From NCBI GenBank assembly GCA_012840125.1, contig DULZ01000049.1, positions 1 to 54,216 on the forward strand: 54,216 nucleotides of DNA, read 5' to 3'. Each line of letters starts with the position of its first letter. The first letter of the stretch is position 1. Below the pieces are notes generated by a model. The model was given only the letters and a program-made list of their open reading frames with translations, did no database searches and was not told where the DNA came from. This DNA comes from Clostridia bacterium (GTDB lineage: Bacteria; Bacillota; DULZ01). Below, one piece after another: positions 20,622 through 50,322 of this stretch. A program made the position numbers and the translations under genes.

Positions 20622-20646
20622 AATAAAAAAGGCAGCGTAAAGCTGC
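20622..20646 (-). terminator. Terminator-like hairpin at repeat copy A edge
   Basis: On the minus strand GCAGC-TTTAC-GCTGC (20632-20646) is followed by CTTTTTTATTT, a good intrinsic terminator. It is the outer left flank of palindromic repeat copy A, and the same 15 bases recur at 20869-20883. It would stop minus-strand transcription coming from the island toward sua5. Confidence 0.6.
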
Positions 20647-20883
20647 ACTCCAGCTTGTTGACTAACTGTCTCTTTGTGTTCGGTGTTAATCGCCGGCTGC
20701 AAGGAGCCCCATTTGGGGATGAGCTCGGTCGCTCTCGGACGCCTCCCATTCGCACCTGGCGGTGCTCAGAGGTCGGCGTTCTCCCTCGAGCTCCCTCGCT
20801 CTTTTGATTCTTGGTCCCATGCAGCCCTACGATTAACACCGAACACCCTTTTGTCTACAGTCTGAAGCGCAGCGTAAAGCTGC
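20632..20883. repeat. Palindromic repeat element, copy A
   Basis: Core 20676-20846 (171 bp) is bounded by a perfect 17-base inverted repeat, GTGTTCGGTGTTAATCG and its complement, with GGCTGC/GCAGCC pairing further inside. The interior is nearly identical to copy B at 41.4 kb, including 37 consecutive shared bases around the hairpin GCACC-TGGC-GGTGC. Outside the core, GCAGCGTAAAGCTGC occurs as a direct repeat at 20632-20646 and 20869-20883. Short frames across it have no supported product. It could be a small non-autonomous mobile element or a structured RNA. Confidence 0.85.
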
Positions 20884-20970
20884 GCTCAAAGGGCTGGTAA
20901 AAGGACAATCGGGCGTAACAGGGCCTTCCCACGGAGCGTTTTTATTGCTGCCCCCGCGGCAGGCGCTGCC

Positions 20971-41315: not shown

Positions 41316-41345
41316 CCTTTCCCTCTCCTGCCGTGCAAAAGTCGG

Positions 41346-41587
41346 AGCGGTATCGCCTTCAGGCCGTTGAACAACTGCAAACCCGGCAATCGGTGTTAAT
41401 CGCGGGCTTCAGGGGAGCCCTATTTGGGGATGAGCTCGGTCTCCCTCGGATGCCTCCCATTCGCACCTGGCGGTGCTCAGAGGTCGGCATTTTCCCTCGA
41501 GCTCCCTCGCTCGTTTGATTCTTGCTCCAATTCAGCCCTCGATTAACACCGATTGCCCTTTGCCTGTGAGCAGGGAAGCGGTACCGC
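41346..41587. repeat. Palindromic repeat element, copy B
   Basis: Core 41385-41557 (173 bp) is bounded by a perfect 18-base inverted repeat, GGCAATCGGTGTTAATCG and its complement. The interior matches copy A closely, sharing ATTTGGGGATGAGCTCGGTC, the 37-base block around GCACC-TGGC-GGTGC, and CCCTCGAGCTCCCTCGCTC. The outer four bases differ from copy A, yet both ends of each copy remain complementary. Near-identical direct repeats AGCGGTATCGC (41346) and AGCGGTACCGC (41577) lie outside, again different from those of copy A. Confidence 0.85.
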
Positions 41588-41672
41588 TCTAGCTCTATTG
41601 TATCTCAAATTGGCCCTGAAAAACACTTGCCGGCGGCGCGGCAGGCTTATCGGCCAAGAAAACCGGAGCAAA

Positions 41673-50010: not shown

Positions 50011-50322
50011 CTAAAAAAATTAACTCCCCATCCCAAAGGGACGGGGAGTTACCCGCGGTACCACCCTAATTGGCCTATAAGAAGGCCCACTTGTTAAAGA
50101 GTACGGGAAATCCGTGATTTCCGATACCCCCTCTGTTTTAACGGTCAGAGTTCCGGCTCACCTACTATCCCCCTGGGGAATTCAGCTCGCAGCTCAGGGG
50201 AGAACTTCAATAACCGGGTTTTTACCGGGCTCCCACCTCATCCCGGCTCTCTGGGAAAAACCACAATTACCTACTTTTCCCCTTCATGGCTCATGACTGG
50301 TATGAAGTTCTGGCAATAATTT
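50011..50322 (-). promoter_or_regulatory. T-box leader of aroF
   Basis: On the minus strand the T-box core AGGGTGGTACCGCG (50054-50067) is followed by an intrinsic terminator, AACTCCCCGTCCC-TTT-GGGATGGGGAGTT then AATTTTTTT (50011-50050). Upstream lie an AGAGAGCCGG...GGTGGGAG stem I pattern and CCCCTGAGC typical of the specifier stem. The loop sequence GAAG-TTC-TCCC suggests a Phe (UUC) specifier, although the base after it is T rather than the usual A. Uncharged tRNA would favour the antiterminator and turn aroF on. Confidence 0.92.

Follow-up and report, generated by a model that had tools for sequence, protein, structure and literature searches.

The repeat that occurs twice in the window (the whole 54,216-nucleotide stretch analysed here) is a real, non-autonomous mobile element of ~214 bp that encodes no protein. 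It inserts at the stem-loops of intrinsic terminators and duplicates the whole stem-loop in doing so. The two copies, A and B (Table 1), very likely belong to a MITE family whose mover is an IS1182-type transposase acting by joining at the 5′ feet of the target stem-loop. The MITE family, new among IS1182-type elements, is well supported; least secure is the enzyme of the host lineage, which we infer from shared ends and one remnant.

An earlier, sequence-only reading had described a shared core in the two copies, bounded by perfect inverted repeats and devoid of supported proteins. The full cores of copies A and B are indeed alignable with each other, the inner repeats are perfect over 17 bp in A and 18 bp in B, and the long open reading frames of copy A matched no Pfam family. 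The borders proposed at the time for copy A (20676–20846) proved too narrow, because imperfect 15-bp terminal inverted repeats, defined from an alignment of many copies as CAGACTGTnGACAAA and CAGCTTGTTGACAAA, sit outside that core, with a target stem-loop beyond each end. Copy A folds far more strongly than its shuffled versions on both strands (z −9.0 on the minus strand, −6.1 on the plus strand). Reading frames run through several copies, consistent with the same reading's warning that short frames in such repeats could be annotated as spurious proteins. Both copies had also been placed upstream of a minus-strand core gene; copy B does lie upstream of alr, but it equally adjoins a divergently oriented gene for an ECF-type sigma factor. 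Elsewhere in the window, a DUF3800 gene (PF12686, 21792–22686) carries at its 3′ end, on the opposite strand, a DUF3800-VIII RNA (RF03075, 69.8 bits), and a T-box leader (RF00230, 122 bits) lies at 50034–50296 on the minus strand.

Table 1. Coordinates of copies A and B of the element and of their flanking target duplications in the window.
Feature	Position	Strand	Remarks
Copy A, element	20651..20864	-	214 bp; 'sense' orientation CAGACTGTAGACAAA...GTCAACAAGCTG
Copy A, terminal inverted repeat CAGACTGTAGACAAA	20850..20864	-	
Copy A, terminal inverted repeat CAGCTTGTTGACTAA	20651..20665	+	
Copy A, inner perfect inverted repeat, arm 1, GTGTTCGGTGTTAATCG	20676..20692	+	17 bp
Copy A, inner perfect inverted repeat, arm 2, CGATTAACACCGAACAC	20830..20846	+	17 bp
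Copy A, target duplication, copy 1	20632..20646	-	Terminator-like stem-loop GCAGC-TTTAC-GCTGC, then CTTTTTT (minus strand)
Copy A, target duplication, copy 2	20865..20887	unassigned	Stem-loop AAGCGCAGC-GTAAA-GCTGCGCTC
Copy B, element	~41360..41573	-	Outer ends decayed; borders +/- a few bases
Copy B, inner perfect inverted repeat, arm 1	41385..41402	+	18 bp
Copy B, inner perfect inverted repeat, arm 2	41540..41557	+	18 bp
Copy B, decayed target duplication, copy 1, around GGAGCGGTATCGCC	41344..41357	unassigned	Borders approximate
Copy B, decayed target duplication, copy 2, around AAGCGGTACCGCTC	41576..41590	unassigned	Borders approximate

In many copies the same terminator-like stem-loop stands to the left and to the right of the element. 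The flanks had been regarded as unrelated DNA; instead, the left and right flanks of each copy resemble one another. Across 48 copies, flank similarity averaged 9.1 for a copy's own left and right sides and 6.2 for mismatched pairs, the former exceeding every one of 5000 random pairings (highest mean 7.15). Individually, 14 of the 48 lay above the 99th percentile of mismatched pairs, and more than half were without a convincing flank duplication, which may have decayed, been lost or never been present (the analysis cannot say which). A set of 17 duplications from seven genomes, hand-picked for good preservation and therefore descriptive, with no claim to unbiased sampling, ranged from 16 to 26 bp in length, and in 15 of them a stem-loop reached within 2 nt of both duplication ends (12% in shuffles). 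Duplication length thus tracks stem-loop length, because the entire stem-loop is duplicated. The stem-loop stands on both sides of the element, unlike the IS1272-type signature, in which it is lost and nothing is duplicated. In a composite subfamily (L147, L066), type-2 elements sit at the foot of the type-1 inner hairpin; these cases were not counted as evidence, since the inner hairpin is not duplicated.

Two orthologous empty sites in sister genomes confirm the duplication of the whole stem-loop (gene names at these loci were read from translations). At the RNase J–tepA junction, genome G001 carries an element between two copies of AGACCCG-TTTC-CGGGTCT, reading ...AAAAGACCCGGAAACGGGTCTT-element-GAGACCCGGAAACGGGTCTTTTT..., where a single terminator stands in G002 and G000. 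At the second locus, 3′ of a gene conserved in all three genomes, the G001 element lies between two copies of AGCTAAGCC..GGCTTAGCT, and G002 and G000 again have one. The stems at the empty sites vary somewhat in sequence among the genomes, as expected at such distances, yet the count is still one versus two. Neither G001 nor G002 keeps the genes that neighbour copies A and B next to one another.

The family is much larger than the two copies first recognised. A DNA search of the host's own genome returned 23 matching pieces, which we estimate to represent ~15 copies or remnants because several pieces are two halves of one copy. Among 60 relatives searched, convincing copies were found only in G001 (at least 13 scored) and G002 (3), both members of the same family as the host; G023 gave a single 24-base match, with the rest of the element absent. 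An exact core pattern run over the GTDB collection, which may omit the window's own genome, retrieved 47 stretches from two related MAGs (46 in JAAYOX01 and 1 in JAAZDD01), and no other family searched yielded the core. Copies are surrounded by unrelated genes. The proposal that the repeat is MITE-like is borne out by the scatter of copies over unrelated surroundings, by their terminal inverted repeats and target duplications, by two empty sites in sister genomes, and also by an IS1182-family insertion sequence in another genome that shares the termini.

What the elements have in common is their ends and not their body, because bodies of 38 bp (L061), 167 bp (L072) and composite structure (L066) occur between the same ends and flanking stem-loops, and ends and duplication persist as the bodies vary. 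In G000, L008, L009 and L013/L019 carry a different body inside the same arms, some with GCATGGACC-like motifs; this body had no Rfam match. When the end pattern CAGMYTGTTGACAAAM was searched over 398 genomes of the phylum, matches were concentrated in a few (notably 30 in G303, 18 in G047 and 6 in G383), with none for the reversed pattern in these three genomes, and many fell exactly at the foot of a stem-loop. Perfect or near-perfect stem-loop duplications flank L188, L191, L199, L213, L221, L266 and L270. Unrelated Firmicutes share both the ends and the mode of duplication, one instance being an IS1182-family insertion sequence. In G047, contigs often stop ~20 bases or less from an end CAGACTGTTGACAAAA, the pattern that a multicopy element missing from the assembly would produce. 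Separately, the glycine-GGAnGA riboswitch model scored below its threshold (79 of 110 bits) at L096 (983–1161, minus strand).

The link to IS1182 comes from G383, a genome from another family of the phylum, whose element (L217, L218, L243) has the same 15-bp end CAGACTGTTGACAAA at a stem-loop foot. An open reading frame there starts ~90 bp inside identical termini (beginning MLSKKQDVRHQIEFVSIDQL), contains the Pfam domains DUF772 and DDE_Tnp_1, and is assigned to IS1182 by NF033551 (279.9 bits, cut-off 270) even though the gene is cut by a contig end. The G383 end includes TTGACA, and TATTAT follows 17 bases further on, outside the end; judging by sequence, the two are plausibly a promoter for the transposase gene. 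L243 represents a full-length but decayed IS1182 element (1562 bp) with a duplicated 26–28 bp stem-loop. The G383 element thus carries a transposase gene (within ~1.56 kb in decayed L243), whereas the window copies are gene-less and 214 bp long. Within the host lineage, the only IS1182 sequence next to such an end is a short remnant in G001, ~50 bp inward of it (L241; a weak match, E 1.4e-5). G000, G001 and G002 yielded no intact IS1182 element bounded by these ends, and a search for 1–3 kb end pairs among the loci examined in these genomes revealed no intact autonomous copy. G002 holds one near-complete IS1182 gene with a stop codon (L228), around which no element ends were found at ≤2 mismatches. 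The assemblies of G303, G047 and G033 contain many such ends and no IS1182 match, and in G386 the one IS1182 element that is complete and has good ends (L227) is flanked by stem-loops that differ between its two sides.

Reviews based on ISfinder list IS1182 direct repeats of 0–60 bp, so long repeats in IS1182 are probably known in general. For the window copies we infer not only an IS1182 mover but also a cruciform intermediate and 5′-foot chemistry: the ends CAGnnTGTnGACAAA would serve as the recognition sites of the transposase, the target stem-loop would adopt a cruciform form, and joining would take place at its 5′ feet, after which gap repair would copy the entire stem-loop. Two complete terminators would then flank each new insertion, and both neighbours appear to keep one. 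IS1272, a member of IS1182, inserts into stem-loops or terminators and deletes or replaces them; the stem-loop targets of IS1272 and TnSha1 include verified terminators and show no primary-sequence specificity (PMC4923244, PMC5678879). The window family resembles both in its probable IS1182-type transposase, its terminal repeats (~16 bp in IS1272 and TnSha1) and stem-loop targets, but differs from IS1272 in that the whole stem-loop is duplicated and not removed or replaced without duplication. In the literature covered, which was mostly open-access, whole-stem-loop duplication has been drawn only as a hypothetical 'pathway b' (PMC5678879), and terminator duplication by MITEs is nowhere reported.

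The sequence-only reading had offered a repeated structured RNA as its alternative. Spelled out, this rival is an RNA gene or a cis-regulatory RNA copied again and again, with the fold under selection and mobility incidental. The stem covariation is real: 15 of 45 pairs changed on both sides, 97.8% of cells are paired against 28–42% when slid, and departures from Watson–Crick pairing on the sense strand favour G-U over A-C (28 versus 13, a count of non-independent events), although the relatedness of the sequences means that neither the covariation nor the G-U figures are clean tests. Unpaired stretches such as CTCATCCCCAAA and AAAATCAAAAGAGCGA are also conserved. However, compensating changes can equally arise when one palindrome arm is corrected from the other, copies lie between unrelated genes, and interiors are exchangeable or, in the 38-bp elements, missing, while the ends and the mode of insertion stay constant. 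Rfam gave no relevant match for the window copies at the curated threshold, and none for copy A at a relaxed threshold either. We therefore consider this explanation unlikely; an RNA role for the window family is unnecessary to explain the repeat and has a low probability.

A catalogued RNA family does coincide with elements of this type. TwoAYGGAY (RF01731), which is listed without a cis-regulatory association and named once in the main text of PMC2864571, matches the interior of all four elements with these ends in G033. Two of these exceed the curated threshold of 43 bits (L213, 48.8 bits, 1543–1701; L266, 53.7 bits, 536–691) and two fall below it (L267, 37.2 bits, cut by a contig end; L191, 29.8 bits), as does one element in G252 (L211, 37.1 bits). 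Clear duplicated stem-loops flank L191, L213 and L266. In G033 the model thus fits the interior of same-ended elements at stem-loops, whereas the window gave no RF01731 match, including for copy A at the relaxed threshold.

Two other movers are highly improbable. A retroelement that moves by target-primed reverse transcription, a counterpart of the group IIC introns that insert after terminators, would agree with the targeting of terminators and with the loss of one end in L010, L011, L012 and L020, but deletions are also internal (L063, L067, L070), the inverted repeats at both termini and the duplication of whole stem-loops are in keeping with a DNA transposon, same-ended elements contain an IS1182 transposase, and a reverse transcriptase was rejected on its profile of matches (none in G001, which has the largest number of copies, or in G002, and one partial in G000). 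Just as improbable is a MITE of the IS1202 group, which makes 16–28 bp target duplications (PMC10132070): the long duplications and a TGT..ACA core within the ends recall that group, but its ends start 5′-TGT and the conserved ends here reach 5 bp beyond TGT, its transposase is a different one, and no target site has been identified for it (PMC10132070). Where elements with identical ends encode a transposase, it is of the IS1182 family; between such ends no IS1202-type transposase was found, the rve-type transposases of G001 looking IS3-like and being without these ends, with none in G000 or G002.

The IS1182-type reading probably extends beyond the host, to a widespread lineage with ends CAGnnTGTnGACAAA that chooses its target by shape, leaves two complete terminators per insertion and has bodies catalogued as orphan RNAs, including TwoAYGGAY (RF01731). 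In DDE transposons the length of the target duplication is normally set by the enzyme; here it would be dictated by the target in place of any ruler in the protein, the duplication being whatever stem-loop was hit. A length that follows the target in this way would amount to evidence from nature that joining at the 5′ feet is directed by structure, a pathway drawn but unobserved in PMC5678879. Duplication of the terminator would also be a simple route to an insertion that is harmless to either neighbour. For RNA discovery, TwoAYGGAY in G033 is a caution that orphan RNA families found through covariation can be the bodies of palindromic mobile elements.
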